Shown: piece after piece, positions 4,330-42,148 of the stretch | Layout of the letters: each line of letters opens with the position of its first letter | Numbering within the stretch: position 1 is the first letter of the stretch | Virus record (IMG/VR): IMGVR_UViG_3300022870_000002 | Location: 1 to 47,936 of that record | From: a virus | DNA: 47,936 bases | Strand: one strand, 5' to 3' | Program-made: the position numbers and the translations under genes | Notes under the pieces: model-generated | What the model was told of the DNA's origin: nothing | Databases searched by the model: none | The model's input: the letters and a program-made list of their open reading frames with translations, nothing else

Positions 4330-4812
4330 ATGAAAATCGGGTTCACAATTCCAGGCACGCCACAGGGGAAGGGCCGCCCGCGCTTCGACGGCCGAGGCGC
4401 TTTCGTGCGTGTTCACACGAGCGGCGACGACATCAAGCGGGAGAAGGAAATCCGCCGGATCGCCCGCGAAGTCATCGCCGGCACCCACGAATATGAAGGG
4501 TATCTCCCTACCGTCCTGCCCGTCCGCGTGACGATCGAGGCGACGTTCGAGGTAACGCCGAGCTGGACCAAGAAGCGGAAGGACGAAGCGCTCCAAGGCG
4601 TCTATCACGTCACCAAGCCCGACGCCGACAACATCGCCAAGAGCGTGCTGGACGGCCTCCTCGCCGGGCCGAAATCGAAGCGCGATCCCGACCCCAAGCC
4701 GTGGCTGATCGTCGACGATACACAGGTCGCGGAGCTTCTGGTCCGCAAGCGCTATGGATCGCCAGCCCGAACGGAGGTCGTGGTCGAGACGATCGGGGCG
4801 GGCTTGCTGTGA
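4330..4812 (+). CDS. rusA: RusA-family Holliday junction resolvase
   Basis: The family signatures are clear: an N-terminal strand followed by GTPQGKGRPRF, then KPDADNIAKSVLDGL, then DDTQVAELLVRKRYG. These Asp residues form the metal site in RusA. The protein is 160 aa, slightly longer than Escherichia coli RusA (120 aa). I chose ATG 4330 because it places the first strand (MKIGFTIPG) as in the family; a TTG at 4306 and an ATG at 4309 are in frame upstream. It resolves branched DNA during phage recombination or before packaging. The last codon overlaps the next gene as GTGA. Confidence 0.92.
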   Translation: MKIGFTIPGTPQGKGRPRFDGRGAFVRVHTSGDDIKREKEIRRIAREVIAGTHEYEGYLPTVLPVRVTIEATFEVTPSWTKKRKDEALQGVYHVTKPDADNIAKSVLDGLLAGPKSKRDPDPKPWLIVDDTQVAELLVRKRYGSPARTEVVVETIGAGLL

Positions 4813-5579
4813 TCGCTCGCGAAATCGGCCGCGCTCGCCTTTTCCTCGGCGATGCGCTCGACACGATGGCGACGCTTGAGCCCGGATCGGTCGACGCCGT
4901 CATCTTCGATCCGCCCTATTGCTCGGGGTCTGTAAGCGAAGCGTCGCGCACGTCAGCGAACGGGCAGGGCTTGAGGTCGGAGAACCTGACGAAGTTCGGA
5001 TGGTTCGTCGGCGACAACATGGGGACCGCCGGCCTCGTGTTCCTCTTGAGGTCGATCGCATTCGAGGCGATACGCGTTGTCAACGGCAACGGGTCGATGA
5101 TCGTTTTTTGCGATTGGCGCATGGTGCCGAACCTTGCCCCGGCAATCGAAAGCGCCGGGTGGCGATATCAAAACATGATCGTTTGGGATAAGGGCGCGAT
5201 GGGCCTCGGCGCAGGCTTTCGCGCGCAACATGAAATCGCGCTCCACTTCACGGCTGGAAGCCCGACCTATCACAATAAAGGGACGGGCAACGTCATCAAG
5301 GCGCGGCGCGTCACGGCGGCCGAGCGCGAGCATCAAACGCAAAAGCCGCTCGACATTATGCGGCAGCTCATTGACGTCGTCTGCCCTCCCGGCGGGATCG
5401 TATGTGATCCCTTCATGGGGTCCGGGTCGACCGGCGTTGCAGCCATGCAGATCGATCGAGGCTTCATAGGTATAGAGCGCGACCCCGCGCATATCGAGAC
5501 AGCCGCCCGCCGAATTGCCGAGGCACAATCCGACGTCCAGATTCCGAAAGCCGATCGAGCGCAAGAGTCCATGATATGA
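4809..5579 (+). CDS. DNA methyltransferase, beta class (N4-cytosine or N6-adenine)
   Basis: The catalytic motif DPPY (residues 34-37) comes first. QKP (178-180) and the S-adenosylmethionine motif DPFMGSGSTG (200-209) follow, then GIERD (221-225). This permuted order defines the beta class, which includes CcrM-like and N4-cytosine enzymes. The start is GTG 4809, overlapping the rusA stop; the end overlaps the next gene by ATGA. Length 256 aa is normal for an orphan phage enzyme. No restriction partner is visible, so self-protection or epigenetic control is the likely role. Confidence 0.93.
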   Translation: MIAREIGRARLFLGDALDTMATLEPGSVDAVIFDPPYCSGSVSEASRTSANGQGLRSENLTKFGWFVGDNMGTAGLVFLLRSIAFEAIRVVNGNGSMIVFCDWRMVPNLAPAIESAGWRYQNMIVWDKGAMGLGAGFRAQHEIALHFTAGSPTYHNKGTGNVIKARRVTAAEREHQTQKPLDIMRQLIDVVCPPGGIVCDPFMGSGSTGVAAMQIDRGFIGIERDPAHIETAARRIAEAQSDVQIPKADRAQESMI

Positions 5580-9525: not shown

Positions 9526-10031
9526 CGACGGAAAAAGACGATATCGGCCTTGAGCCATGGGAGGCCGCACTCCGCCCCGACGATCGCGAGTTCGTGCGCG
9601 AGTATCTGATCGACCTCAACGCGAAACAGGCGGCCATCCGGTGCGCGTACTATCCGAGCCCGCAAAGCGCCCACAAGAACGCTTGGCGGATCATGCGCCG
9701 GGGCGTGATCCTCAAGGCCATCGCTCAGGCCATGGCGGCGCGGGCCGAGGCGCTCGGCATCACGGCTCAGACGATCCTGTCCGAGGCGTTCCGGTCCTAC
9801 CTCCTCGCGATCGAGGCGCGCAATTTCACCGCCGCCGCCCGGTTTCTGGAGATGGCGGGCAAGCATGTTGACGTACAGGCGTTCCGCACGAATATCGGGG
9901 TATCGGGGCCGGATGGCGGGCCTATTCAGGTGGAGGACTTGTCCGTCCTCGACGACGACGAGCTAGAGGCATATGGCCGCATTGCGCGAAAGCTCGCTGG
10001 GCGAGCTGCGAACGACAGGGAAGCGGCCTAG
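9522..10031 (+). CDS. terS: Terminase small subunit
   Basis: 169 aa. The N-terminal DNA-binding part (REFVREYLIDLNAKQAAIRC, then PSPQSAHKNAWRIMRR) has the helical recognition pattern of the Terminase_2 small-subunit family. A central helical oligomerisation region and an acidic C-terminus (VLDDDELEAYGRI) follow, the latter of the type that contacts the large subunit. The start is GTG 9522. It lies directly upstream of, and overlaps by 59 nt, the large subunit gene. It recognises phage DNA to start packaging. Confidence 0.85.
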   Translation: MTTEKDDIGLEPWEAALRPDDREFVREYLIDLNAKQAAIRCAYYPSPQSAHKNAWRIMRRGVILKAIAQAMAARAEALGITAQTILSEAFRSYLLAIEARNFTAAARFLEMAGKHVDVQAFRTNIGVSGPDGGPIQVEDLSVLDDDELEAYGRIARKLAGRAANDREAA

Positions 10032-11757
10032 CCTCACCGCCTATGAGCATGAGGTTGCGCGTCGCAGGGCGGCGAGTGACCGCGCCCGGATCGCCAAGGA
10101 TGCCGACGCTATCCGCGACCGCTGCACAAGCCTGATTGGCTTCGTGCGGGAGTTTTGGGGCATCCTCGAACCGGGGCGGGACTTCGTGTGCGGGTGGGCG
10201 GTCGAAGCCATCGCGCAACACCTTGAGGCGGTGAGCGACGGCCTGATCCAATATCTCCTGATCAACGTGCCGCCGGGCATGATGAAATCCCTCCTCGTGT
10301 CCGTGTTCTGGCCCGCGTGGGAGTGGGCCACGCGCTCGGGCTCGCTTGGCTTCCTCGCCTCGTCGTTCGGCCTGGACAACGTCCTCCGCGACAATCTCAA
10401 GATGCGCCGCCTCGTCGAATCCGACCTCTACCAAGGCCTGTACGGGGCCAAGGTCGCGGCGGCGAAGAAGTGGGGCGGCCGACGGTTCGAGAACATGGCG
10501 CAGGGCGTGCGCGAGGGCCGGTCGTTCAAGCGGATGACGGGCGGACGCGGCGACAGGGTCATCATCGACGATCCCCACGACGTCGACGCGGGCGAATCCG
10601 ATACGCAGCGCCCGGCGGCGGTGAAGACGTTCCGCGAGGCCATCCCCGACCGGCTCAACGACATGTCGAAGTCGGCAATCGTCGTGATCATGCAGCGGCT
10701 TCACGCGAACGACGTGTCGGGCACGATCCTCAAGCTCGGCCTGCCCTACGTCCACCTCAACCTCCCCATGGAGTTCGAGGAATACCGCGAGGAGGGCGGG
10801 AAGCGGATCGACGCGCGATGCCGCACATACCTCCAGCGGGATATTGGCCCGGACGGCAAGCCGATCCCCGGCGCTACCCCGTTCTTCACCGATCCGCGCG
10901 AATACGACGGGGAGTTGCTGTTCCCCGAGCGCTTCCCGCGCGAAGTGGTCGAGGGGCTCAAGAAGGCCAAGGGTTCCTACGCCTATGCGGGCCAGTATCA
11001 GCAGCGCCCCACGGCGCGCGAGGGCGGCTTGTTCAAGCGGGCGTGGTTCGCGGGAAAGATCATCGCCAAGTCGTCCATGCCGCGCGGGCACTTGACCCGG
11101 TGCAGGGCGTGGGATTTCGCCGCGTCCGAGGCTCTCGCCGGCACCGATCCGGACTGGACCGCCGGGCTCAGGCTGGCCCGTCACGGCGTGGATTATTACA
11201 TCGAAAACGTGGAGCGGGACCGCCTGAGCCCCGGCGCGGTCCAGAAGCTTGTTCGTGCCGTGGCCGAGCTGGACCCGGTCGGCACCGTGGTTCGCATCCC
11301 GATCGACCCGGCACAGGCCGGCGTTTTCCAGACGAACAGCTATGTCACGGCGCTTGCCGGCTTCCCGATCAAGGCCGAACGCCCCGGCGGCAAGGAGCAG
11401 CACGCGAAGGTTGCCCGAGCCCTCCCGTCCACGATCCAAGCCGAATATGGGCATGTCTACCTCGTCAACTCAGGGCCGCCCGACGAAGGCGTCGACCCGT
11501 GGATCGAGCTTTTCCTCGACGAGCTATGTTCCTTCCCGACCGGCGCCCACGACGATCAGGTCGACGCGTTCTCCGACGCGTTCAACGAACTGTCCGTCGC
11601 CAACGATGGCCCGTTCGAGAGCGCCAGCGCGGGGCGCAGCACGACGCTTGCCGTTGCGGAGCGTGACTCGCGATACTCATTCGGCGATAACGAGCCACAG
11701 GCGGCGGGCGCCGGGTTCGGGTCGGCCGGGTCAATCTTGCGAGGGATTTTAGGGTAA
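9973..11757 (+). CDS. terL: Terminase large subunit (packaging ATPase/nuclease)
   Basis: 594 aa. The N-terminal ATPase has a Walker A-like NVPPGMMKS (residues 98-106) and Walker B RVIIDDPHD (195-203). The C-terminal RNase H-like nuclease has CRAWDFAASE with the first Asp and GAHDDQVDAFSDAF with the last metal ligands. It pumps DNA into the prohead and cuts it. The start is ATG 9973 with AGAGG close upstream, inside terS. The stop overlaps the portal start as TAATG. A long open frame on the other strand here is a high-G+C shadow. Confidence 0.95.
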   Translation: MAALRESSLGELRTTGKRPSLTAYEHEVARRRAASDRARIAKDADAIRDRCTSLIGFVREFWGILEPGRDFVCGWAVEAIAQHLEAVSDGLIQYLLINVPPGMMKSLLVSVFWPAWEWATRSGSLGFLASSFGLDNVLRDNLKMRRLVESDLYQGLYGAKVAAAKKWGGRRFENMAQGVREGRSFKRMTGGRGDRVIIDDPHDVDAGESDTQRPAAVKTFREAIPDRLNDMSKSAIVVIMQRLHANDVSGTILKLGLPYVHLNLPMEFEEYREEGGKRIDARCRTYLQRDIGPDGKPIPGATPFFTDPREYDGELLFPERFPREVVEGLKKAKGSYAYAGQYQQRPTAREGGLFKRAWFAGKIIAKSSMPRGHLTRCRAWDFAASEALAGTDPDWTAGLRLARHGVDYYIENVERDRLSPGAVQKLVRAVAELDPVGTVVRIPIDPAQAGVFQTNSYVTALAGFPIKAERPGGKEQHAKVARALPSTIQAEYGHVYLVNSGPPDEGVDPWIELFLDELCSFPTGAHDDQVDAFSDAFNELSVANDGPFESASAGRSTTLAVAERDSRYSFGDNEPQAAGAGFGSAGSILRGILG

Positions 11758-13973
11758 TGGCGACCCCCGAGGACTATCGGCGCGACGCGAAATACAAGTT
11801 CGATTCCGCACGCGGCACGATGCTGGCCCCGATCGGAGGGCAGGCCGTCGTGATGCGCGGCCCCGAGGCGGTCGGCCCGATTCGCGAAGGCTCCCCGAGC
11901 GACGACGAGGCCAAGCCGACCATCGCCGGCATGGTGAGCCGTTCCGGGGACACGGCGTGGCTCCCCAACTCGTGGTTGCAGGCCATCGCCGAGAATGACG
12001 ACGTCATCCTCAAGCGCGAGGGCGGACAGGGCCTCGCCCTCTACGATCGCCTGCTCGACGACGACGCCGCCGCGAGCGCGATGCAGCAACGCCGGCTCGC
12101 GATCACGTCGAAGGACTGGGAGGTCGCGCCGGGCGACGACAAGGACCCGCGCTCCGTCCTCGCCGCCGACGAATTCCGTCAGATGCTCAAGGAGATCGAT
12201 TTCGACCGGGTGACGGGCGGGCTCCATTGGGCGGTATGGTTCGGGTACGGCGTGGGCGAAGGCATGTACGATATGCGGGTCTACAAGGGCCGCAACATCG
12301 TGTGGCTCACGGATATTATCATCCCTGATCGGCGATGGTTCGGGTTCACCATGGAGGGCGAGTTGCGGCTCGTCTCCACGCCTTACGCCGGCATCACGGG
12401 GCAGCAACTTCCGCCGAACAAGTTCGTCTCTCTGAGAACCGGCGCGACCCACGATTTCGCGTTCTACGGCCTCGGGCTGGCCCATTGGTGCTACTGGCCG
12501 ATCTTCTTCAAGCGGGCCGCGCTCCAGTTTTGGGCGCTCTACCTCGAAAAGTTCGGGATGCCGACCGTCGCCATCGAATTCCCGGCGGCCGAAAAAGACG
12601 ATGCGCGGGCGAAGAGCGACCGCCTCGCAGCCGCCGTCGCCGTGGGACAGGACAGGGCCGTCCTTGTCCCCGAGGGCACGCTCTCGAACAATATGCTCCA
12701 GCTTATCGAGGCGGAGCGCAGCGGCGCGGGCTCCAGCTCCTACAAGGACTTCGTCGGGGAGCAGAACGACGCGATTCGGTGCGTTGTGCTGGGTCAACCA
12801 GGCACGTCGAGCCGCATGGCGACGGGCTTGGGCTCGGGTCAATCCGACGTACAGGACGACGTGAAGGACGAAATAGTCAAGGCCGACAGCGACCTAATCT
12901 CGGCCGCGTTGGGTCGCACCTTCGCGAAGTGGTTGACCCGGTGGAACCATGGACCGGACGTTGCTCCGCCGACCGTCTTCCGCGTGTTGGACGATCCCGA
13001 GGACCTCGGCGCCGTGGCGACGCGCGACGCGACCCTCGACGGCATCGGGATCAAGCGGACGGAGGACAGCGTCAAGGAGGTCTACGGCGACGGCTATGAG
13101 CTGGACCGCCTGAGCGAGGCCGACAAGGCGGACAACGCCGCGAAGCTGGCGCAGGCCAAGGCGGTGCCGGGACAGCCACCGGTTGCGGCCAACGAGAACG
13201 GGGACCGGGCGAAGATTGCCAAGGCCAAGCTCACCTTCGACGTGGGCGATACAGCACCGCTCTACGTCTCCCGCAAGCTGCTCAACACGGCCGACCTGAT
13301 CGCATGGGCCAAGTCTCAGGGCTTCGAGTCGCCCGTCCCGGCGGCGGTTATGCATGTCACGGTCCTCTACTCCCGGACCCCGGTCGATTGGTTCGACATG
13401 GGCGCGCCGTGGCAGTCCAACGAGGACGGGACGCTCAACGTGGCGCCGGGCGGGCCGCGCGCGGTGTGCGCCCTCGGCGACGACGGCGCGATCGTGCTGC
13501 GGTTCTACTCGCCGGACATCCAGTATCGCCACGACAGCATGGTCGAGCGCGGCGCGTCGCACGATTTCGACGAATATGCGCCCCACGTCACGTTCACCTA
13601 TGACGGCGCGAGCGTCGACCTCGCGAAGGTCGTTCCCTATGCCGGCGAGCTGCGGTTCGGCCCCGAGACGTTCGAGCCGATCAAGGCCAGTTCGACCGAT
13701 CCCGCAACCTATGCGTTCTCGGCCGCCGACGAGCAGGCGATCGACCGGCTTATCTCCAAGCTCACGGAGGAGGCCGATCCCGTGTTCGAGGCCATGGGCG
13801 AGGTGCTGCGCCAGAACCTCCAAGGGGTGACGACGATCGAGGGCGCCCGGATCGCCATCCTCGGCGCCATGGAACAGCTCCCGGTTGACCGGCTGGCCCG
13901 GCTCACCGCGCTCCCCATGTTGGCCGAACGGGCTGGCGCGGCGATCGGCGCCGAGGAAGAGGTCACGGCGTAA
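11757..13973 (+). CDS. Portal protein (Mu gp29-like, DUF935) with an inserted Acb1-like anti-CBASS 2H phosphodiesterase domain
   Basis: 738 aa; Mu-like portals are usually near 500. Residues about 60-470 are the DUF935 portal core (e.g. HWAVWFGYGVGEGMYDMR, then PDRRWFGF). Residues about 500-640 form a second domain: LYVSRKLLN, IAWAKSQGF, MHVTVLYSRTPVDW with H533-V-T535, GASHDFDEYAPHVTFTYD with H610-V-T612. Two H-x-T motifs 77 residues apart, and the surrounding sequence, match the Acb1 family. Acb1 enzymes cleave the cyclic nucleotides that trigger CBASS immunity. After this domain the helical DUF935 C-terminal tail resumes (ADPVFEAMGEVLRQ), so the enzyme is inserted rather than appended. The portal ring is a virion component, so each particle may carry about twelve copies. 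Enzyme activity is inferred. Confidence 0.9.
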   Translation: MATPEDYRRDAKYKFDSARGTMLAPIGGQAVVMRGPEAVGPIREGSPSDDEAKPTIAGMVSRSGDTAWLPNSWLQAIAENDDVILKREGGQGLALYDRLLDDDAAASAMQQRRLAITSKDWEVAPGDDKDPRSVLAADEFRQMLKEIDFDRVTGGLHWAVWFGYGVGEGMYDMRVYKGRNIVWLTDIIIPDRRWFGFTMEGELRLVSTPYAGITGQQLPPNKFVSLRTGATHDFAFYGLGLAHWCYWPIFFKRAALQFWALYLEKFGMPTVAIEFPAAEKDDARAKSDRLAAAVAVGQDRAVLVPEGTLSNNMLQLIEAERSGAGSSSYKDFVGEQNDAIRCVVLGQPGTSSRMATGLGSGQSDVQDDVKDEIVKADSDLISAALGRTFAKWLTRWNHGPDVAPPTVFRVLDDPEDLGAVATRDATLDGIGIKRTEDSVKEVYGDGYELDRLSEADKADNAAKLAQAKAVPGQPPVAANENGDRAKIAKAKLTFDVGDTAPLYVSRKLLNTADLIAWAKSQGFESPVPAAVMHVTVLYSRTPVDWFDMGAPWQSNEDGTLNVAPGGPRAVCALGDDGAIVLRFYSPDIQYRHDSMVERGASHDFDEYAPHVTFTYDGASVDLAKVVPYAGELRFGPETFEPIKASSTDPATYAFSAADEQAIDRLISKLTEEADPVFEAMGEVLRQNLQGVTTIEGARIAILGAMEQLPVDRLARLTALPMLAERAGAAIGAEEEVTA

Positions 13974-14630: not shown

Positions 14631-14707
14631 GCCGGGGTGGAGCAGTCCGGTAGCTCGCCAGCCTCATAAGCTGGAGGTCGCGGGTTCAAATCCCGCCCCC
14701 GCCACCA
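14631..14707 (+). tRNA. tRNA-Met (CAU anticodon), initiator-like body
   Basis: 77 nt with encoded CCA. The D stem is GAGC/GCTC, the anticodon stem CCAGC/GCTGG with loop CTCATAA (anticodon CAT), and the T arm GCGGG-TTCAAAT-CCCGC. The body (TGGAGCAGTCCGGTAGCTCG, with A11-T24) resembles bacterial initiator tRNA. However, position 1:72 is a normal G-C pair, the three consecutive G-C pairs of the anticodon stem are absent, and there is a C-C mismatch at 2:71. It could be an elongator Met, a lysidine-modified Ile (CAU) or an altered initiator. Confidence 0.85.
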
Positions 14708-15174: not shown

Positions 15175-15411
15175 ATGGCCGACCCCGTAAGCCTCATTCA
15201 ACAATCCGACCCGAGTAAGGACGCGATCCGCATCCTTGAGCAAGTCCTCGCCGACGCGAAGGCGGGCCGGGTCCGCGCCGTGGCAATTGCGACGGTGGAC
15301 CATGAGGGCATGACTGACGGGGTATGGAGCCAACCGCCGTTCTCCAATGCGCTCGTTGGAGCGATCGAGGCGCTCAAGTTCCGGTTCTGCTACGCGTGGC
15401 TGATCCGTTGA
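15175..15411 (+). CDS. Hypothetical protein, 78 aa
   Basis: Starts MADPVSLIQQSDPSKDAIRI, with a beta strand (RVRAVAIATVDHEG) and a helix (SNALVGAIEALKF). Small phage proteins of this pattern are common but have no assigned role. Its stop overlaps the next gene's TTG start as TTGA. Confidence 0.6.
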   Translation: MADPVSLIQQSDPSKDAIRILEQVLADAKAGRVRAVAIATVDHEGMTDGVWSQPPFSNALVGAIEALKFRFCYAWLIR

Positions 15412-16262
15412 CGCTGTTTCGCGCCCCGGCTGGCAACCTCCTCCCGCTACAGGTGGGCGCGGCCGATATCGAGGAGTGGCTCCTCGCCAAGGAGCCGCAG
15501 GCCATCGGGTCTTACAGGGACCTAGCGCCGCAGGAATACGGCCGGGCCTTCACTGCGGCACAGACGGCCGGAACCGACATCGCCGACGACCTCTATTTCG
15601 CCCTCGTCGACGTGGTGGGCCGATCCGGCACGGAGGAGGATTTCTCCAAGCTCGTCACGCCGATCCTCAAGCAAAAGGGATGGCTCAAGGGGGACGACGG
15701 CTCCATCGCTACCCGCGTTGCCCTGATCTACGACACGAACCTCCGCTTGGGCCGCGCCGCCGGGCGCTGGAGCCGGTATCAGTCGACCAAGGCGGCGTTC
15801 CCCTACCTCCGCGCCTTCACGGCCGAGGACGACCGGGTCCGCCACCCACCCAAGTCGCCCCATAGCGATCATCGGGCATGGGATGGGATCATCCTGCCCA
15901 TCGACCACGACTTTTGGACCCGGTGGTTTCCACCGCTCGGCTTTCGGTGCCGGTGTGGCGTGGTGCAGATGACCCGGTCGCAGCTCGCCCGCTACAAGGA
16001 CGGGATCACGAGCGACGAGGAGCTTGCGGATCGCGAGGCGCGTCTAGGCGAGCCTGTGTTCGCCTCCCCGGCGCTCCCGTTCGGGCAACAGCTCGTCGAC
16101 GCGGTCGCGGGCACCAACCAATCCCTCATGCCCGGTATGCGCCCTGTGGACCCGGCCGCGACCTATCAGCGCGGGCAACAGGCATGGAACGCCGAGCTTG
16201 CGGCGCAAGCGCTCGACCAAGTCACGGCGGCGATTGCCAAGCTGTTCGGGATCGGGGCTTGA
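15408..16262 (+). CDS. Minor head / head morphogenesis protein (Mu gpF-like)
   Basis: 284 aa. The N-terminal region (EEWLLAKEPQAIGSYRDL ... AFTAAQTAGTDIADDLYFAL) and the C-terminal Phage_Mu_F core match the Mu gpF / SPP1 gp7 family. The core includes STKAAFPYLRAFTAEDDRVR, then a His-rich segment, HDFWTRWFPPLGFRCRCGV. These proteins sit on the portal and help assembly or DNA ejection. TTG 15408 overlaps the previous stop; GTG 15396 is an alternative start. The opposite-strand cassette begins directly after it. Confidence 0.88.
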   Translation: MTLFRAPAGNLLPLQVGAADIEEWLLAKEPQAIGSYRDLAPQEYGRAFTAAQTAGTDIADDLYFALVDVVGRSGTEEDFSKLVTPILKQKGWLKGDDGSIATRVALIYDTNLRLGRAAGRWSRYQSTKAAFPYLRAFTAEDDRVRHPPKSPHSDHRAWDGIILPIDHDFWTRWFPPLGFRCRCGVVQMTRSQLARYKDGITSDEELADREARLGEPVFASPALPFGQQLVDAVAGTNQSLMPGMRPVDPAATYQRGQQAWNAELAAQALDQVTAAIAKLFGIGA

Positions 16263-16267
16263 GCGGT

Positions 16268-16341
16268 TGGAGCCAGCGGCAGGAATCGAACCCGCGTCGT
16301 CGTCTTACGAAAGCGATGCTCTACCATTGAGCCACGCCGGC
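16268..16341 (-). tRNA. tRNA-Thr (CGU anticodon)
   Basis: 74 nt with encoded CCA. The acceptor GCCGGCG pairs with CGCTGGC (one G-U). The D arm is GCTC-AATGGTA-GAGC, the anticodon loop TTCGTAA, and the T arm GCGGG-TTCGATT-CCTGC. The loop matches threonine tRNA(CGU). The anticodon stem (TCGCT/GACGA) has a C-A mismatch and a T-G pair next to the loop, so it may be weakened or decaying. The discriminator base is T. It lies in the 3' part of the reverse-strand cassette transcript. Confidence 0.75.
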
Positions 16342-16444: not shown

Positions 16445-16753
16445 CTATAGGACGTAGTAAAGCCGGACGTCGTACTCATTTTGCGGCTTCGACCAGCGGG
16501 TCGTTTCGGCATCCCATCCGAGCTTGGAGTCCGTGTTGACCGGGGTGTCACCGTGGACCCGGCCATTCTCCAGCATCACGACGACGCGCTTCCCCTTGGC
16601 CTCCTCGGGCAGATGGCCGGGGTTGCGCTTCCATGGTAGGCGCTTGGGCGCGGGAGTCGGCGGTGCCTGGACAGGCGGTTTCGGCTCAGGTTGCGCAGCG
16701 GGCTTTTCCTCGGCCGGGCGCACCGCGAACAGGTCGTCGTCGAAATCGCTCAT
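16445..16753 (-). CDS. Hypothetical protein, 102 aa, last gene of the reverse cassette
   Basis: Acidic start (MSDFDDDLFAV), then a long Pro/Ala-rich linker (to about residue 40), then a small folded C-terminus (KRVVVMLENGRVHGD ... YDVRLYYVL). The start overlaps the upstream stop as ATGA. No family recognised. Confidence 0.6.
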   Translation of the reverse strand: MSDFDDDLFAVRPAEEKPAAQPEPKPPVQAPPTPAPKRLPWKRNPGHLPEEAKGKRVVVMLENGRVHGDTPVNTDSKLGWDAETTRWSKPQNEYDVRLYYVL

Positions 16754-16989
16754 TTCCGGGACGCCTTCCATGCTTCAAGGGCGGACACATGGTCCGGGCA
16801 TATGTCTTTGTCCGGGGCCGGCTGTGTTGTGCAGCGATCGCATATCGGTCGATCGCACGTACCCGACTTGCGGCCCGGAACCTTCCAATCGCAGAGCTTC
16901 GTCGCCCGCCGGCCGCAACGGCAACGGCGGGTCGTCGAGCATACGATCGCAGCTTGACCACCGGGCAGGGTGACGCGCTCGCATGTCAT
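16750..16989 (-). CDS. Cysteine-rich, probable zinc-binding protein, 79 aa
   Basis: Cys residues occur in pairs typical of zinc ligands: CRCGRRATKLC, then GTCDRPICDRC, then a C-x-x-H (CPDH). It probably folds around one or two zinc ions. It may bind nucleic acid or protein. ATG 16989 overlaps the previous stop as ATGA, which excludes the longer upstream frame. Confidence 0.65.
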   Translation of the reverse strand: MTCERVTLPGGQAAIVCSTTRRCRCGRRATKLCDWKVPGRKSGTCDRPICDRCTTQPAPDKDICPDHVSALEAWKASRK

Positions 16990-17225
16990 GAGCGTCGGAT
17001 CACAAAGCCGCCCGAGGCGGGGAAGGGCTCGACATCCCACCCCTCGAATCGGGTGAGGTCGACGTCAGGGCCGAACCTCCCGCGCATGTCGGCGACGAAC
17101 GCATCCCATGCGTAGACCACAAACACGGCGCGGAATGGCGGCGAGAAGCCGGGAATGTGTCGCTTAGCCGCGTGCGCCTGTCGCTCGCGGATCAGCGCTG
17201 CGGCCATGTCCTGCACGATCGTCAT
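16986..17225 (-). CDS. Hypothetical protein, 79 aa
   Basis: Basic N-terminal helix (MTIVQDMAAALIRERQAHAA), then aromatic-rich strands (FRAVFVVYAWDAFVADMRG). It is joined to both neighbours by ATGA overlaps. No family recognised. Confidence 0.55.
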   Translation of the reverse strand: MTIVQDMAAALIRERQAHAAKRHIPGFSPPFRAVFVVYAWDAFVADMRGRFGPDVDLTRFEGWDVEPFPASGGFVIRRS

Positions 17226-17410
17226 TGCCGGCGAAACCAGCGCTCGGCCGTGCAGAACGGCGCCTCATGTTCGGCCTGAGCGTTGAGAGTCGCCGTCACC
17301 TGTCGCGCGACAACCGGGCTGTCCGCCACGAGGAGCGCGGCCGGCCGGCGCTTGGACCACACCTCGCGGCCGATCGCCACGAGCGGGAAATCGACCTCCT
17401 CAAGGATCAT
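17222..17410 (-). CDS. Hypothetical protein, 62 aa
   Basis: Small protein (MILEEVDFPLVAIGREVWSK) with alternating strand-like segments. Both junctions are ATGA overlaps. No family recognised. Confidence 0.52.
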   Translation of the reverse strand: MILEEVDFPLVAIGREVWSKRRPAALLVADSPVVARQVTATLNAQAEHEAPFCTAERWFRRQ

Positions 17411-17874
17411 AGCGACAGGTAGGACACGGTCGCGCCCATCTCTTCAAGCCAATCGGCGTGGGAGTTATCGGCGATGATGCTATGCATTTTCGCGATGGAC
17501 ACTACCTCGGGCCGGATATCGACGTTCCCAAAGCCCTCCTTGAGGCCACGGATTTTCCGCCAGTCCCGAATAGAGGTGCGGTCGCGTCCGACGATGCTTC
17601 CGATTTGCCGATCGGTGAGGTTGCTGGCGAGCAGAATCCGCCGCCGTTGGTCCTCGTCTCTGTCGACGAAATGCCGGTGAGGGTTCCAAGCGTAGTTCGG
17701 CTTGAGGCCGCGCTTTTCTCTCCACGATGCGATGGTCGCGGGATGGAGCTGGAGTCGGCGGGCAATCTCCCGGTCCCCGAGGCCCTCGTCGTACAGCTCC
17801 TTGCGCTCGACGTTCTCCTTGTCCGAGATGCGGGGCCTAGGACGGCCCATGCAGGCCCAATTGACCTTCGTCAT
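17407..17874 (-). CDS. Tandem helix-turn-helix protein, 155 aa
   Basis: Two successive HTH-like repeats are visible: LYDEGLGDREIARRLQLHPA followed by TIASWREKRGL, and LASNLTDRQIGSIVGRDRT followed by SIRDWRKIRGL. Both have the homeodomain-like pattern seen in transposase/resolvase HTH modules, but there is no catalytic domain. It is therefore a likely DNA-binding regulator. The start at 17874 is fixed by ATGA overlap. It may control its own cassette. Confidence 0.7.
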   Translation of the reverse strand: MTKVNWACMGRPRPRISDKENVERKELYDEGLGDREIARRLQLHPATIASWREKRGLKPNYAWNPHRHFVDRDEDQRRRILLASNLTDRQIGSIVGRDRTSIRDWRKIRGLKEGFGNVDIRPEVVSIAKMHSIIADNSHADWLEEMGATVSYLSL

Positions 17875-18161
17875 GCGTGTGTCCTCGCGACCTCGGCGAG
17901 CCCTTCCTTGAACAGGGCCAGCCAATCGACGTGGTCCTCGCGCGCGTCGGCCGCAGCGAGGTATCGCTCGATAGTTGCGATCGGCCAATCGTTGATCAGC
18001 GCGGCCGAGACAACGAGCCGGCGGACCTCGCCGAGCCGGACCACGAAACGCACCGGGGCGAGGTCGTCAACGATCCTGAGCGAAAGGAGGCGCTCCTCCC
18101 GGTCCAGCTTGCCGAGCCTGAGCATCCACTCCAGCGCGGGCGGCGTGCGTCCCTTCGTCAT
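17871..18161 (-). CDS. Hypothetical protein, 96 aa
   Basis: Helical protein (ALEWMLRLGKLDREERLLSL) with a strand region (APVRFVVRLGEVRRLVVSAA) and C-terminal helices. The start overlaps the RNase H stop; the end overlaps the HTH gene. No family recognised. Confidence 0.55.
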   Translation of the reverse strand: MTKGRTPPALEWMLRLGKLDREERLLSLRIVDDLAPVRFVVRLGEVRRLVVSAALINDWPIATIERYLAAADAREDHVDWLALFKEGLAEVARTHA

Positions 18162-18661
18162 GTCGCGGCTCCCATGAGCTTCTTGGCAATCGAATGATGC
18201 CGGCGGGCCGTGGTCGGCCGGGGCAGAGCTCGGGCTTTGGTCGCGAGCGCGTCGCACCGTCGGTTCCACACCGCGCGCGGATCGGTGCTGTTCTCGGGTT
18301 GATGACCCTTCACCCATTGCGGGATCAGCACGAGGCCCACGGCCTGCGCCTCGATCGCCGCGAGCGCCTCGGCCATGCGCGGCGTGGTCCGCTTGAAGCT
18401 CTGGCCCTTGATGCGCTCGACCGCATGTTTGCAATCGGTGATGACGCGGACCTCTGTCCCCGACACGACATATCCAGAACGCTTGAGCCGGTGCAGGGCA
18501 TTAGCGATCGTGCGCAACTCGGCCGTGATGGCGCACGCCAGCCCGTCCTTGCGGAATCGGCCCGATGCCTCAATCGGTTCGACCCCCGGCACGACGAGGA
18601 CGAAGGCCCACGTCCCGACGCCGTTCTTGAGGCCCGCGTCCGTGTAGAGGTCGACCGTCAC
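18158..18661 (-). CDS. Ribonuclease H (RNase HI fold)
   Basis: 167 aa. It shows the RNase HI pattern: DLYTDAG with D8, AITAELRTIANAL with E48, VITDCKHAV with D76, then KGHQPENSTD with H120 and RRCDALA with D137. It would cleave RNA in RNA/DNA hybrids, for instance primers or R-loops, during phage replication. GTG 18661 overlaps the previous stop. It is the only clear enzyme in the reverse-strand cassette. Confidence 0.88.
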   Translation of the reverse strand: MTVDLYTDAGLKNGVGTWAFVLVVPGVEPIEASGRFRKDGLACAITAELRTIANALHRLKRSGYVVSGTEVRVITDCKHAVERIKGQSFKRTTPRMAEALAAIEAQAVGLVLIPQWVKGHQPENSTDPRAVWNRRCDALATKARALPRPTTARRHHSIAKKLMGAAT

Positions 18662-19347
18662 TCCTCGCCCTCGTCGAACGTAAAGTGGACCCCCTCGGCG
18701 GCCCACCGCTTCAAGTTTTCTGCCCGAACCTTGGCCTCGGCACGCTCAACCTCGCGATCGGCGACCCTCTTCCAGAGCGCAAGGAGCTGTGCGTGTGTCG
18801 CGTGTTCCGTGCGTCCCTGATAGGTGACATACCAGCCGAGCCGGGAAGTGACGGTCCCGCCGAGCGCCGTCACGACGAACCCGCGCTTGCTCAGCTTGTC
18901 AGCCGCGTCCAGCGCCGCCGCTTGTTGGCTCTGTTCCGCTTTGCGCTTCAAGGGTTCCGTCTGCTCGCGAAACCTAGCTGCCTGGGCCTGTCTGGAGCGT
19001 TCGACCTCGGCCGGATCAAGGCTCGCCGCGCGCGCGAAGCTGCGCATCGCCTCCGCCCATGCGTCACCCTCGCCCATATGGCGAGCCACCTCAGCGAACA
19101 AGTCGTCGGCGGTCTGGGAACGGCTCCGCGCCCCATATTCGTGCGTCCGGGCATAGCTGAAATTGGCGCGCTCGAATCGAGCCTCCACCTTGGGCTTAGC
19201 CCGGCCGGGCACCTCGAACGTCGCCTTGTCGAGGCCATGCTTGTCGCAGATCGCGTCGCCCCGGCCGATGGCCGCGTCGCGCTCTCCCGCGTGTTCGGTC
19301 GACCGGGCGAGCCGATAGCAGGCCTCGGCTTTTTCGCGCGGGGTCAA
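18658..19347 (-). CDS. DUF2786-like protein, 229 aa
   Basis: The N-terminus (EKAEACYRLARSTEHAGERD ... DAICDKHGLDKATFE) follows the DUF2786 pattern. In that family a helical repeat with an E-A-x-x-A core ends in K-y-G-L. A long charged coiled-coil middle (about 100-150) and a C-terminal alpha/beta part follow. TTG 19347 overlaps the previous stop (TTGA), and this excludes a longer upstream frame. Function of DUF2786 proteins is unknown. Confidence 0.6.
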   Translation of the reverse strand: MTPREKAEACYRLARSTEHAGERDAAIGRGDAICDKHGLDKATFEVPGRAKPKVEARFERANFSYARTHEYGARSRSQTADDLFAEVARHMGEGDAWAEAMRSFARAASLDPAEVERSRQAQAARFREQTEPLKRKAEQSQQAAALDAADKLSKRGFVVTALGGTVTSRLGWYVTYQGRTEHATHAQLLALWKRVADREVERAEAKVRAENLKRWAAEGVHFTFDEGEE

Positions 19348-19601
19348 GGCTTCTCCTCCTCGGGAACGTGTTGCACGAAGATCGTGCGGGGCGGGAGCGC
19401 TGCAATCTCGTCGATGACGTGACGGAAGTTCGCGTCCGCGCGGGTGACGGCGGTGACAATCTCGCGGGCGATGTCGCGGGCGTAGATCGTCGGATTGAAG
19501 CCGATCGGATCGACAAGGAAGCCCTGCGCCGCGAGCTGATCGAACATCATCGCGAGCGCAGGAAACTCCCGACGCTGATCCGGGGTCAGCTCGGGGCTCA
19601 T
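19344..19601 (-). CDS. Hypothetical protein, 85 aa
   Basis: Starts MSPELTPDQRREFPALAMMF; mostly helical. Joined by ATGA upstream and TTGA downstream. No family recognised. Confidence 0.55.
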   Translation of the reverse strand: MSPELTPDQRREFPALAMMFDQLAAQGFLVDPIGFNPTIYARDIAREIVTAVTRADANFRHVIDEIAALPPRTIFVQHVPEEEKP

Positions 19602-19930
19602 TTCTTGAGGGCCTTGGCGATTTCCTCGGCCGCCATCTCACCCGCGACGCGGCGCATCTCGGCCGCCATCTCGCCGCAGATGCGGCCCATGGCCTCCAAC
19701 TCGTCGGCGGTCGGGAGGAAGACGAGCGAAGCGACCCCGGATGCGCTGTCGATGATCACGCCGGGCCTCGCCTCCCCGGACGCATATTTGAAGATGTCCA
19801 AGCTCATGGACTTGCCGGGCAGAAACGACACGAGGCGGCCGAACCTGTTGACGAGGTGGGGCGTGATGACCACGCGTTGATCCTCGGAACGGAGGTCGAC
19901 CCGCTCGGGGAAATATTTCCAGCGGCTCAA
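19598..19930 (-). CDS. Hypothetical protein, 110 aa
   Basis: Strand-rich N-terminal two thirds (QRVVITPHLVNRFGRLVSFL) and a helical, Met/Glu/Ala-rich C-terminus (GRICGEMAAEMRRVAGEMAA). The start is TTG 19930 overlapping the previous stop as TTGA. No family recognised. Confidence 0.55.
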   Translation of the reverse strand: MSRWKYFPERVDLRSEDQRVVITPHLVNRFGRLVSFLPGKSMSLDIFKYASGEARPGVIIDSASGVASLVFLPTADELEAMGRICGEMAAEMRRVAGEMAAEEIAKALKK

Positions 19931-20124
19931 CGACCGATCCTCCGCACGCGCTCGATTTCCTTCATCGCGTGACGGACTCGCCTTTCGTGGAGCTGGAGGG
20001 GCGTCTCGCGGAGCAGCGCCGAGACGATGCTAAGCCGGAACGTCCACAGGCAATAGCCGATGGTGAGGAGGCTGCATCCGAGCATTGAGCCGAATGCGGC
20101 GGTGAGGATCAGGTGGAGGATCAC
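19927..20124 (-). CDS. Single-pass membrane protein, 65 aa
   Basis: The hydrophobic N-terminal half (LILTAAFGSMLGCSLLTIGY) forms one membrane segment. A basic cytoplasmic tail (LHERRVRHAMKEIERVRRIG) follows. GTG 20124 overlaps the previous stop. It could be an inner-membrane accessory, for example for exclusion. No family recognised. Confidence 0.6.
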   Translation of the reverse strand: MILHLILTAAFGSMLGCSLLTIGYCLWTFRLSIVSALLRETPLQLHERRVRHAMKEIERVRRIGR

Positions 20125-20294
20125 AGGCTTTCCCTTTCGATTGAGTGAGGTGTCGAACCGGCGAGAGCCCGAGCCGCATCGCGCGCGGACTCGACCGTCT
20201 CGTATGGGATATTTCCCCAATGGCCGTGAAGGCTCAGACGGGCTCCGGACAACCTCCGGTGGGTCGTGATGATGAACCGGAGCCCGTCGCGCAT
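20121..20294 (-). CDS. Hypothetical protein, 57 aa
   Basis: Basic small protein (MRDGLRFIITTHRRLSGARL). The start is the ATG in a TGATG overlap with the previous stop; a GTG three bases upstream is equally possible. No family recognised. Confidence 0.5.
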   Translation of the reverse strand: MRDGLRFIITTHRRLSGARLSLHGHWGNIPYETVESARDAARALAGSTPHSIERESL

Positions 20295-20497
20295 CACGCC
20301 GCGCGGCTCGCGTAGGACCGGGCCAAGTCGGCCTCTTGGAGGGCGAGTTCCTCCTCCAGCGTGGCGGCGAGGCGCAGCGCATGGGCCAGCCGATCCGCGA
20401 TCCGGGCGACCTCCAGCTCGCGGGCCATCCGATAGCCGGTCGAGCAACCCGCGACGTGCCGCGCGCGGGCGCGCATGTCGTCGACGAGGCGGCTCAT
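20294..20497 (-). CDS. Hypothetical helical protein, 67 aa
   Basis: Arg/Ala/Glu-rich, probably one or two long helices (ELEVARIADRLAHALRLAAT). Joined by ATGA to the cassette's first gene. No family recognised. Confidence 0.5.
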   Translation of the reverse strand: MSRLVDDMRARARHVAGCSTGYRMARELEVARIADRLAHALRLAATLEEELALQEADLARSYASRAA

Positions 20498-20799
20498 ATG
20501 TCCATCTCCCCGTCATGGAACGCCGTGTCGATGCAGGGCGTGTCGGGCGGGGTGTCACGGTCGCCATAGTGGACGGCCTCCTCGGCGTTGAAGTCGTCGA
20601 TTTCTTCGAGCAGGCCCGCAAGCGTGTCGTGATAGCCGAAATGAGCCATCACGCCGCGCGAACCATGGAAGCCCTCTTCCGGATCGAGACGGACCACGAC
20701 GCCACCATACACGTCGAAGCCGGACGGGTTTTTGGTCCACAGGAAGCGACGCGAGCCGACCGGCTCGGCCGCGCGGACCAGTGAAATCTGAGACGACAT
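20494..20799 (-). CDS. Hypothetical protein, 101 aa, first gene of the reverse-strand cassette
   Basis: Acidic protein with a central strand-rich section (GGVVVRLDPEEGFHGSRGVM). ATG 20799 has a strong AAGGAGG site 8 nt upstream. Almost every downstream gene of the cassette lacks such a site, so this is where ribosomes load on the transcript. Function unknown. Confidence 0.62.
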   Translation of the reverse strand: MSSQISLVRAAEPVGSRRFLWTKNPSGFDVYGGVVVRLDPEEGFHGSRGVMAHFGYHDTLAGLLEEIDDFNAEEAVHYGDRDTPPDTPCIDTAFHDGEMDI

Positions 20800-20922: not shown

Positions 20923-21882
20923 ATGGTCGAGAAAGAAATCGAGTTGTTCCGCGTGGGCGGAAAGGCGTCTCGGGGCATCACCCCGGAGATACTCGCCGAG
21001 GTCGCGACGCAGGATTGCGAAACGGCCCCTGCGGCGGTTTGCTTCGGGCACCCCAAGAGCGACACTCCGGCGGCTGGCATTATCCGCAAGCTCCGCGCGG
21101 TCGGAAACAGCCTGTTCGGCACGGTGAAGCTCAACGAGGTCGCGGAGCAGGGCGTCGCCAATGGCGAATGGCTCAACCGCTCCGCCGCGTTCTTCGACCC
21201 GACCCACGAGGCGAACCCGCGCCCCGGCAAGTGGTCCTTCCGTCATCTCGGCCTGCTCGGCGCCGCCGCCCCCGGTATCCCCGGCATGGGCACGCTGCAA
21301 AAGGCGCTCGCGTTCGATGCAGCAACCGACGAGCTGCTCGTCGACGGCGACCCGGCCGATGCCGTCGTCTTTTCCGGGGCGCCGACCCCGGTCCACTACC
21401 AGTTCGCCAGCAAGGAAAACGCCACCATGGACAAGACTCCCGAGCAGATCGCCGCCGAGGCCGCCATCAAGGCCCGCGAGGAGGCCGCCGACGCGCGCGA
21501 AAAGGAATTCGCGGCCCGCGTGAAGACGCAGTTCGAGGCGTCGAACGCCACCGCCGTCGATGCGCTCGTCGCCGCCGGCAAGGTCCTCCCGGCCGAGGCG
21601 CCCAAGCTCAAGCTCGTGTTCAACGCGCTCGACCAGGCGGAGCTGGAGTTCGCGGCCGACGACAAGGGCCAGCCCTCCGCCGCGCTGGCGCGGTTCCTGA
21701 CGGACGCGCTCCCCAAGCGCGCCCCGATCGGCGACAAGCCGGCATCGCCCTCGGGCGAGTTCACCGCCACGGGCGACAAGCCCAAGACGGCGGGCGAGCT
21801 GACGTCGGCCGCCAAGGCGCTCATGGAGAAGGACAAGTCTCTCTCCTTTGAGGCCGCGATCGAGCAGGTTTCGGCCGCCTAA
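20923..21882 (+). CDS. Capsid maturation protease/scaffold fusion (Mu gpI/Z-like)
   Basis: 319 aa. The N-terminal part (IELFRVGGKASRGIT ... AAVCFGHPKSDTPAAGIIRK ... HLGLLGAAAPGIPGM) matches the protease-like region found just before phage decoration and capsid genes. The C-terminal half from about 169 is charged and helical, as expected for a scaffold (EEAADAREKEFAARVKTQFE). An internal ATG at 21427 with AAGGA upstream could give a separate scaffold. The position before decoration and capsid genes supports the call. Catalytic residues are not identified. Confidence 0.75.
   Translation: MVEKEIELFRVGGKASRGITPEILAEVATQDCETAPAAVCFGHPKSDTPAAGIIRKLRAVGNSLFGTVKLNEVAEQGVANGEWLNRSAAFFDPTHEANPRPGKWSFRHLGLLGAAAPGIPGMGTLQKALAFDAATDELLVDGDPADAVVFSGAPTPVHYQFASKENATMDKTPEQIAAEAAIKAREEAADAREKEFAARVKTQFEASNATAVDALVAAGKVLPAEAPKLKLVFNALDQAELEFAADDKGQPSAALARFLTDALPKRAPIGDKPASPSGEFTATGDKPKTAGELTSAAKALMEKDKSLSFEAAIEQVSAA
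21427..21882 (+). CDS. Possible in-frame internal scaffold product, 151 aa
   Basis: An ATG at codon 169 of the protease/scaffold gene is preceded by AAGGA about 10 nt upstream. It opens the helical, charged scaffold part (MDKTPEQIAAEAAIKA). Mu and lambda make their scaffolds from such nested starts. Support is the start context and family precedent only. Confidence 0.45.
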   Translation: MDKTPEQIAAEAAIKAREEAADAREKEFAARVKTQFEASNATAVDALVAAGKVLPAEAPKLKLVFNALDQAELEFAADDKGQPSAALARFLTDALPKRAPIGDKPASPSGEFTATGDKPKTAGELTSAAKALMEKDKSLSFEAAIEQVSAA

Positions 21883-21918: not shown

Positions 21919-22287
21919 ATGGGTCAGACGACCGGTTTCCTCACCAAGTCCCTCACCGCGACGACCGCCATCTTGGCGCGTCGCTTCGTCAACTATGGCG
22001 CCGCCGATGGCACGGGCATCCCGGCCGTCGACGGCTCTAAGCATATCGCGGGCGTCTCGGCGGACATCGATACGGCGGTGGGCCAGCGGTGCAGCGTGTT
22101 CAAGATCGGGAACATCGCCGACATCGTCTATGGCGGCACCGTCACCCGTGGCGATCCGCTCACCTCGGACGCCTCGGGCCGCGCCATCAAGGCGACCGCG
22201 ACCGGAACCTTTTGCGGCGGCTTCGCCGAGGTGTCCGGCGTCGTCGGCGACATCGGCTCCGTCGAAATCGCCCCGTTCATCCTCTAA
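21919..22287 (+). CDS. Head decoration protein (DUF2190/gpD-like)
   Basis: 122 aa, beta-rich (NYGAADGTGIPAVDGSKHIA ... IADIVYGGTVTRGDPLTSDA ... SVEIAPFIL). This is the look of DUF2190-type decoration proteins, which stabilise the capsid. TAGGAG lies 9 nt before the ATG. It sits between protease/scaffold and major capsid genes, the usual place. Confidence 0.8.
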   Translation: MGQTTGFLTKSLTATTAILARRFVNYGAADGTGIPAVDGSKHIAGVSADIDTAVGQRCSVFKIGNIADIVYGGTVTRGDPLTSDASGRAIKATATGTFCGGFAEVSGVVGDIGSVEIAPFIL

Positions 22288-22317: not shown

Positions 22318-23289
22318 ATGGCTCAGGCCCCCTTTGTTATCACTCCCGCGCTCGTCGCCATCGCGATCGACTATAGCGCGGTGAACGCCGCCGCTCGCGG
22401 CTATGTCGCCGAGAGCGTGGCGCCGCGTATCTCCGTCGACGCTCCGTTGTTCCGCTACCCGGCCTTCAAGGTCGAGGACGCGTTCACCGTCTACGACAAC
22501 CAGATCGACCGGCTCGGCCGACTGAATGAGATCGTCGACAGCGCGACCGAGATTGCCGGCGAGACGCTGGACTACGGCATCCTCAAGAAGGTGCCGTTCC
22601 GCGACGAGGCGGCGGCACGGGGGCAGTCGATCCCCTTCCCGCTCAAGGCCCGCGCGGTGCGTCAGGTCATTGACCAGAATCAGCTGAACCGGGAAATCCG
22701 GGTGGCCTCGCTGGCGATGACGCTGGGCAACTATACCTCGGGCTATTCGACCGATCTTTCGGCCGGCACCAAGTGGACCGATTTCGCCAATTCGGACCCG
22801 GTCCAGGCGGTGACGGATGCCGCCGCCACCATGCTTATCCCGCCGAATGTGGGCGTCACGTCGCGGCGTGTCATGAACGTGCTGCGGCGGCATCCCAAGG
22901 TGGCGGTGGCGCTCGGCGGTTCGCTGGAGAGCGGGCGCCGCGTCTCCGACGCCGAGGTCGCCAACGCGTTCGGCCTCGACCGCATCATCGTGGGCAACAC
23001 GATCAAGCAGACGTCGAAGCGGGGCCAGACGCTCACCACGGGCAACATCTGGCCCGACTCCTTCGCCCTGCACTATCAAGGGCCCATGGGTCCGGACGGC
23101 ATGGGCCTGAGCGTCGACTCCCCCAACTTCCTGTCGACCTTCCAATGGGGGTCGATCGTCTCGGGCGAGAACGCGTATCGCCCCGGCGAGATGGGCCTGT
23201 GGGGCGGTGTGGGCGTGTTCACGGGCGAGAGCCTCGTCGAGAAACTCGTCGCCCCGTTCGCGGGTTATCTGTTCAATTCGGTTATCTGA
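22318..23289 (+). CDS. Major capsid protein
   Basis: 323 aa. Position (after protease and decoration genes) and length fit a major capsid protein. Family-like stretches include AARGYVAESVAPRISVDAPL, a central helix near VTDAAATMLIPPNVGVTS and a Gly-rich C-terminus (GVFTGESLVEKLVAPFAGYL). It shows no long scaffold-like N-terminus, as the scaffold is encoded separately. A GAAAGG ribosome site precedes the ATG. Confidence 0.85.
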   Translation: MAQAPFVITPALVAIAIDYSAVNAAARGYVAESVAPRISVDAPLFRYPAFKVEDAFTVYDNQIDRLGRLNEIVDSATEIAGETLDYGILKKVPFRDEAAARGQSIPFPLKARAVRQVIDQNQLNREIRVASLAMTLGNYTSGYSTDLSAGTKWTDFANSDPVQAVTDAAATMLIPPNVGVTSRRVMNVLRRHPKVAVALGGSLESGRRVSDAEVANAFGLDRIIVGNTIKQTSKRGQTLTTGNIWPDSFALHYQGPMGPDGMGLSVDSPNFLSTFQWGSIVSGENAYRPGEMGLWGGVGVFTGESLVEKLVAPFAGYLFNSVI

Positions 23290-41948: not shown

Positions 41949-42148
41949 GCCTCGTCGGGAAAAATGACCCCCGGCGCCTCGGGAAGGGCGCCGGGGTCAT
42001 TCTTTCGGATGCCCTGATATACCGCGATGGCAACATCGATCGCCATCCGCCTATCCACACAGTTTTCCCCGGATGCGAGGAGCTTGCGATCCTCGTTGAA
42101 GATCATCCATGCCCAAGCCGCGCTCCAGCCTTGGCCGATTTCGATCAT
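41945..42148 (-). CDS. Hypothetical protein, 67 aa, last gene of the leftward arm
   Basis: Starts MIEIGQGWSAAWAWMIFNED; a small alpha/beta protein. It is joined by ATGA to the C5-methyltransferase gene. Its C-terminus (DPGALPEAPGVIFPDEA) is encoded by the bidirectional terminator stem. It ends 4 nt inside the o-spanin end, where the two arms meet. Confidence 0.6.
   Translation of the reverse strand: MIEIGQGWSAAWAWMIFNEDRKLLASGENCVDRRMAIDVAIAVYQGIRKNDPGALPEAPGVIFPDEA
41963..42001. terminator. Bidirectional terminator between the converging genome arms
   Basis: AATGACCCCCGGCGCC (41963-41978) pairs with GGCGCCGGGGTCATT (41987-42001) with one bulged C and an 8-nt loop. Read leftward, the stem ends in ATTTTT. 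Read rightward, it is followed by CTTTC. It serves both converging operons and also encodes the end of the 41945 gene. Confidence 0.8.

Follow-up and report, generated by a model that had tools for sequence, protein, structure and literature searches.

The phage represented by the window, by which we mean the whole stretch of 47,936 nucleotides analysed here (IMG/VR record IMGVR_UViG_3300022870_000002), encodes a Mu-type (DUF935) portal protein in which, as judged from sequence comparison, an Acb1-like 2H phosphodiesterase domain interrupts the linker that joins the portal core to the C-terminal tail. The reading that we favour, and hold to be probable though well short of certain, is that the inserted domain destroys CBASS signals late in the cell that is producing the virus, and that it is afterwards cut off or left on a flexible tether.

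The portal gene and its neighbourhood

The portal is encoded by an open reading frame (ORF) of 738 amino acids on the plus strand, and its match to the Pfam family Portal_Mu (PF06074) spans profile positions 2-335 of 336, with 248.8 bits against a cut-off of 23.9. The features to which the text refers are the following:

9973-11757 (+), large terminase subunit (PHROG 38, E 1e-66), directly upstream of the portal gene, its stop overlapping the portal start
11757-13973 (+), portal protein, Mu-type (DUF935), with inserted Acb1 domain (Portal_Mu E 1.2e-73, Acb1 E 3e-38)
12036-13088 (+), portal core, residues 94-444 (PF06074)
13089-13256 (+), variable linker from portal core to Acb1, residues 445-500, the least conserved segment
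13257-13691 (+), Acb1-like 2H phosphodiesterase domain, residues 501-645 (PF23474, 131.2 bits)
13353-13361 (+), first predicted catalytic motif, H533-V-T535, aligning to H44/T46 of Acb1
13584-13592 (+), second predicted catalytic motif, H610-V-T612, aligning to H113/T115 of Acb1
13719-13970 (+), C-terminal helical tail of the DUF935 portal, residues 655-738, by homology to the tails of Acb1-less portals
15324-16262 (+), MuF-like minor head protein (PHROG 220, E 1e-42; Pfam Phage_Mu_F just under its cut-off)
20923-21882 (+), head maturation protease (PHROG 976, E 5e-39)
21919-22287 (+), head scaffolding-type protein (PHROG 673, E 4e-22)
22318-23289 (+), major head protein (PHROG 1005, E 4e-60)

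The 738-aa ORF is the sole portal detected between the terminase and MuF genes, and in all likelihood it serves the phage as its functional portal, since it sits between the terminase and the MuF-like gene, which are followed by the protease, the scaffold and the major head protein. In the PHROG search it matched, besides a portal family, phrog_755 ("RNA ligase"), which is the family that Acb1-type proteins match, and phrog_146, a second portal family whose own C-terminal end aligns with the Acb1 part of the window ORF; the search against NCBIfam gave no match. A structure model of the full-length portal, built on 10 sequences, reached a pLDDT of 38.

Two tRNA genes were detected by ARAGORN and Rfam in this region, tRNA-Met (CAT) at 14631-14707 (+) between the portal and MuF genes and tRNA-Thr (CGT) at 16268-16341 (-) within the head gene block. 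The four ORFs scanned in the approximately 4 kb between the MuF and protease genes (16633-20784) had no PHROG match. Elsewhere the window carries two DNA methyltransferase genes, at 4701-5579 (+) and 42145-43083 (-) (Pfam N6_N4_Mtase; PHROG 363).

Identity of the inserted domain

The similarity to Acb1 that the earlier note had proposed is borne out by both profile and fold. The Pfam match to PF23474 has a curated cut-off of 27 bits, so that by its sequence score the similarity is far above chance, and it extends over 13257-13691; the note had placed the domain at 13224-13691, of which the end holds and the start lies about 11 residues upstream of the Pfam extent. The two H-x-T motifs are present in the 738-aa ORF as they had been quoted, 77 residues apart. 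A profile of 59 such domains matches the portal of phage Pam3 (8hds, E 1.6e-47), the Acb1 of phage FBB1 (7t26, E 4.4e-19) and the BCSR5 phosphodiesterase (9q2g, E 1e-6). The AlphaFold model of the domain (pLDDT 87.9, pTM 0.83) provides the check for a 2H fold that the note had suggested: its two best Foldseek matches are 7t26 and 7t27, both FBB1 Acb1 (E 1.5e-8, TM-score 0.72 by target length), ranks 3-5 are the BCSR5 phosphodiesterase and LigT comes next, LigT and Usb1 being weaker matches.

The catalytic tetrad of Acb1 consists of H44, T46, H113 and T115 (PMC9117128), with which H533, T535, H610 and T612 of the window protein align. Three further Acb1 residues, Y12, E141 and W147, touch the ligand without defining the family. 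The counterpart of Acb1 Y12 is the conserved Y503, and that of E141 is either E637 or E640, a glutamate standing at both positions in the window. The lid tryptophan, W147 of Acb1, is without a clear counterpart in the window protein; a tryptophan is found at this position in many relatives, including two Mu-type fusions from Sphingomonadales. Cleavage of 3'3'-cGAMP and cAAA was seen with T4 Acb1 and with each of nine other Acb1 proteins (PMC9117128). A long branch of about 2.4 changes per site separates the window domain from the T4-like enzymes with measured activity, and the free T4-like proteins form a distant outgroup to the domain.

Insertion site

The Portal_Mu match stops at residue 444, and Acb1-less Mu-type portals continue beyond this point with a further C-terminal helical tail. 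A profile made from the last 88 residues of each of nine Mu-type fusions finds such Acb1-less portals in hmmsearch, namely those of Lsp-JY19 (E 8.6e-6), B3 (1.2e-4) and YPCBV-1 (9.4e-4). The tail match reaches 15.7 bits, none of 1000 shuffles scoring higher than 7.1, and the profile-profile comparison of the tails by hhalign gives E 3.2e-6; tblastn with the tail alone against phages gave no significant match. Residues ~655-738 are thus homologous to the C-terminal tail of portals that lack Acb1, and it follows that the Acb1 domain is an insertion, with DUF935 sequence on either side as the earlier note had stated.

Conservation and selection

Among 82 aligned domains, which are related so that the counts are not independent, both catalytic histidines (H533 and H610), T535 and E637 are invariant, and the position of T612 is occupied by T in 75, S in 6 and A in 1. 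Conservation within the domain is strongest at the active site, in a family whose identity to the window goes down to ~32-40%. In five pairs, dN/dS of the Acb1 domain was 0.20-0.38, close to that of the portal core (0.12-0.28) and under most values of the linker (0.18-0.70). These substitution ratios argue that purifying selection acts on the domain, and together with the retention of both histidines throughout the alignment they suggest that what is being selected is probably an active enzyme.

Distribution and history of the fusion

Close relatives of the domain were found at 56 loci of IMG/VR. A Mu-type portal with Acb1, organised as in the window, was recognised by combining the domain search with a portal search in nine viral contigs (L008-L011, L014, L016, L018, L040 and L050, of which L010 and L011 are incomplete). 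Nearly all other IMG/VR loci encode proteins of portal size with Acb1 at the C-terminal end, and those scanned against Pfam belong to Phage_portal_3 (DUF1073). A third type of carrier is a head protease with the domain order ChaB, Acb1 and XkdF-like prohead serine protease (L062:581-1744, L064:2755-3834 and L065:2779-3837), the order being assigned by Pfam for L062 and L064 and by similarity for L065. A head scaffolding gene lies downstream of the fusion in L062, and upstream of the fusion in L064 there is a separate Mu-type portal stretch within which no Acb1 domain was found. Our literature search found no paper combining "Acb1" and "XkdF".

Two further proteins with Acb1-like sequence are worth recording. 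L058:1-5481, another of the IMG/VR loci, encodes a multidomain protein of 1826 aa with a thioredoxin-reductase-like domain, Acb1 and further parts, which resembles the polyvalent proteins of Iyer et al. The second, gp129 of Roseobacter phage DSS3P8 (L006:3992-4444), is a free Acb1-like protein that matches the Acb1 domain over almost its full length despite being annotated as "prohead protease, HK97 family".

Among 398 Sphingomonadales genomes the Acb1 family is present in 8, and every match found lies in a portal gene or directly adjoins one: seven cases form part of a portal ORF, of Mu type twice and of Phage_portal_3 five times, and the eighth is a short reading frame that overlaps a Phage_portal_3 ORF at its end. 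In the two Mu-type fusions (G086 and G401), whose cores are 34-35% identical to that of the window, the domain occupies the same junction and is followed by the "FAE" motif of the family and the tail. The tree of portal cores places both in the window clade, along with L116, a portal that lacks Acb1; in the tree of domains they fall outside the window clade, a single Mu-type clade not being rejected (p-AU 0.56). L116, from genome G227, is a Mu-type portal that groups with these two fusions and whose C-terminal region is different and shortened. The domain therefore behaves as a module that was gained or lost at least once among close portals, and either loss or repeated gain of Acb1 may have occurred in DUF935 portals.

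CD-NTase (SMODS) genes scored over the cut-off in 36 of the 398 genomes and in 2 of the 8 with an Acb1 domain. We considered a link between Acb1 and CBASS in hosts on this basis and set it aside, as these numbers are too few for a claim and could be background.

Fate of the domain in the virion

Portals stay with the capsid, so that a portal-borne enzyme by itself cannot act in a newly entered cell. The virion structure of phage Mu does not contain the last 124 residues of the portal, gp29, for which its authors infer cleavage by protease I (PMC11915804). Residue 388, where gp29 ends in that structure, aligns with residue 431 of the window portal, which precedes the Acb1 domain; the window linker, Acb1 domain and tail thus all correspond to the segment that is missing in Mu. 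In the Pam3 portal the Acb1 domain is present in the sequence at 462-619, and the deposited chain of 8hds has 442 of 621 residues resolved and 179 not. Although 8hds was present in the Foldseek library and its sequence is very strongly similar to the window domain, it was neither among the 50 matches listed for the domain model nor among its matches with E <= 0.001. Probably, then, the domain is cut off or too mobile to be seen in the virion, and by analogy with these two phages the virion evidence leans against a packaged and delivered domain. The earlier note had envisaged that each virion carries about twelve copies and that protection begins immediately on entry; the former is unproven given the Mu and Pam3 structures, and the latter finds no support in a protein class that remains with the capsid and in a segment that is absent from the Mu virion.

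Proposed role and alternative explanations

In the mechanism that we favour, the portal with its Acb1 domain would be made late, together with the head proteins, and the domain would rely on HxT/HxT acid-base catalysis, as in Acb1, to cleave the cyclic di- and trinucleotides of CBASS while still inside the producing cell. Anti-CBASS activity would then climb in step with head assembly, to the presumed benefit of the phage, and in the finished particle the head protease, for which the product of 20923-21882 is a candidate, would remove the C-terminal segment, unless a flexible tether remains.

The principal alternative is that the enzyme acts in the next cell: the head protease would free Acb1 inside the procapsid, and the fragment would be ejected with the DNA and protect the genome from the first minute of the next infection. 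Such delivery has been proposed by Iyer et al. for portal and MuF proteins that are fused to a 2H domain (PMC5512222, PMC9503650), and it is in keeping with the joining of the domain to three procapsid proteins (two portal families and the ChaB-XkdF protease), with the loss of the matching segment from Mu virions and with the head protease gene in the window. However, the model of the Pam3 portal shows no such domain, and a fragment once cut off could equally exit the procapsid; we therefore regard delivery as unlikely. Somewhat less doubtful, yet still only tentatively put forward, is a broader view in which Acb1 is a mobile module placed in protease-removable segments of several procapsid proteins (before the tail in the Mu-type portal, at the C-terminal end in Phage_portal_3 and within the ChaB-XkdF head protease), by which the enzyme would be made with the heads, freed and possibly carried onward.

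The other explanations concern what the domain does rather than where. It might open 2',3'-cyclic phosphates of RNA or be an RNase, and so not be directed at CBASS, as its 2H relatives do act on RNA, LigT and Usb1 appear among the weaker structural matches, and an RNase role was considered by Iyer et al. in 2017 (PMC5512222). Yet Acb1 is the best match in both sequence and structure by a wide margin and no RNA ligase was recognised among the window genes scanned, which makes a role on RNA distinctly improbable. That the domain stems from an old fusion and persists in the C-terminal segment of the portal for spacing or assembly, with no enzymatic use, could be argued from its place in a variable and apparently removable part of the portal and from related portals that do without it (L116, B3 and YPCBV-1); this we consider very improbable indeed, because the active site is the best conserved part of so divergent a family and dN/dS is well under 1. 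Destruction of CBASS signals in the producing cell thus remains the explanation that we prefer.

Relation to known systems

With phage Acb1 (T4 gp57B; FBB1 Acb1, 7t26/7t27) the window domain has in common the 2H fold and the HxT/HxT tetrad, and apparently also the stacking tyrosine at the N-terminal end and a glutamate near the C-terminal end. T4-like Acb1, however, is a free protein of ~150 aa encoded away from the portal gene, whereas the window domain is a portal insertion on a separate and distant branch and has no clear lid tryptophan. Closer to it are the Acb1-bearing Phage_portal_3 proteins of Pam3 (8hds), phiPSA1, RHEph04-06 and Synechococcus phage Ssp-JY40, whose Acb1 domains belong to the same wider clade, reach 63% identity to the window domain and stand after the portal core as in the window; yet theirs is a different Pfam portal family in which Acb1 forms the C-terminus, whereas in the window the DUF935 tail follows. 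Phage Mu has the DUF935-type core in gp29 and the gene order terminase-portal-MuF-protease-capsid in common with the window, but its portal has no Acb1.

Portal and MuF proteins that bear a fused 2H domain, with a role against nucleotide-based immunity, were proposed in 2017 (PMC5512222) and 2022 (PMC9503650), and the window protein shares with those fusions the joining of a 2H enzyme to a head protein. The accessible text of these two papers assumes packaging and injection, and does not specify which portal family is involved, where the domain is inserted, how well it is conserved or whether it is lost from the virion. The earlier note had ranked this locus as a candidate for an undescribed system, which cannot be upheld in view of these papers and of the Pam3 portal, which carries the same domain. 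Our literature search, for which the full text of subscription journals was mostly out of reach, found neither a paper on the Mu-type Acb1 fusion nor an enzyme assay of a portal-fused Acb1. What is new here is the Mu-type portal as a carrier, the exact insertion site and the doubt over persistence of the domain in the finished particle.

The conserved fusion offers a handle for annotating the C-terminal part of many portals, at present labelled hypothetical, and the Mu-type Acb1 fusion is of moderate interest because it is directly testable. Its apparently removable position frames the question of whether the enzyme does its work where the virus is made or travels to the next cell, and its attachment to three types of procapsid protein makes delivery to the next cell somewhat more interesting. 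If the domain is active, an anti-CBASS function would be tied to an essential head protein and thus be hard to lose, and it would be made just when heads, a reported trigger of some bacterial immune systems, appear in the cell.
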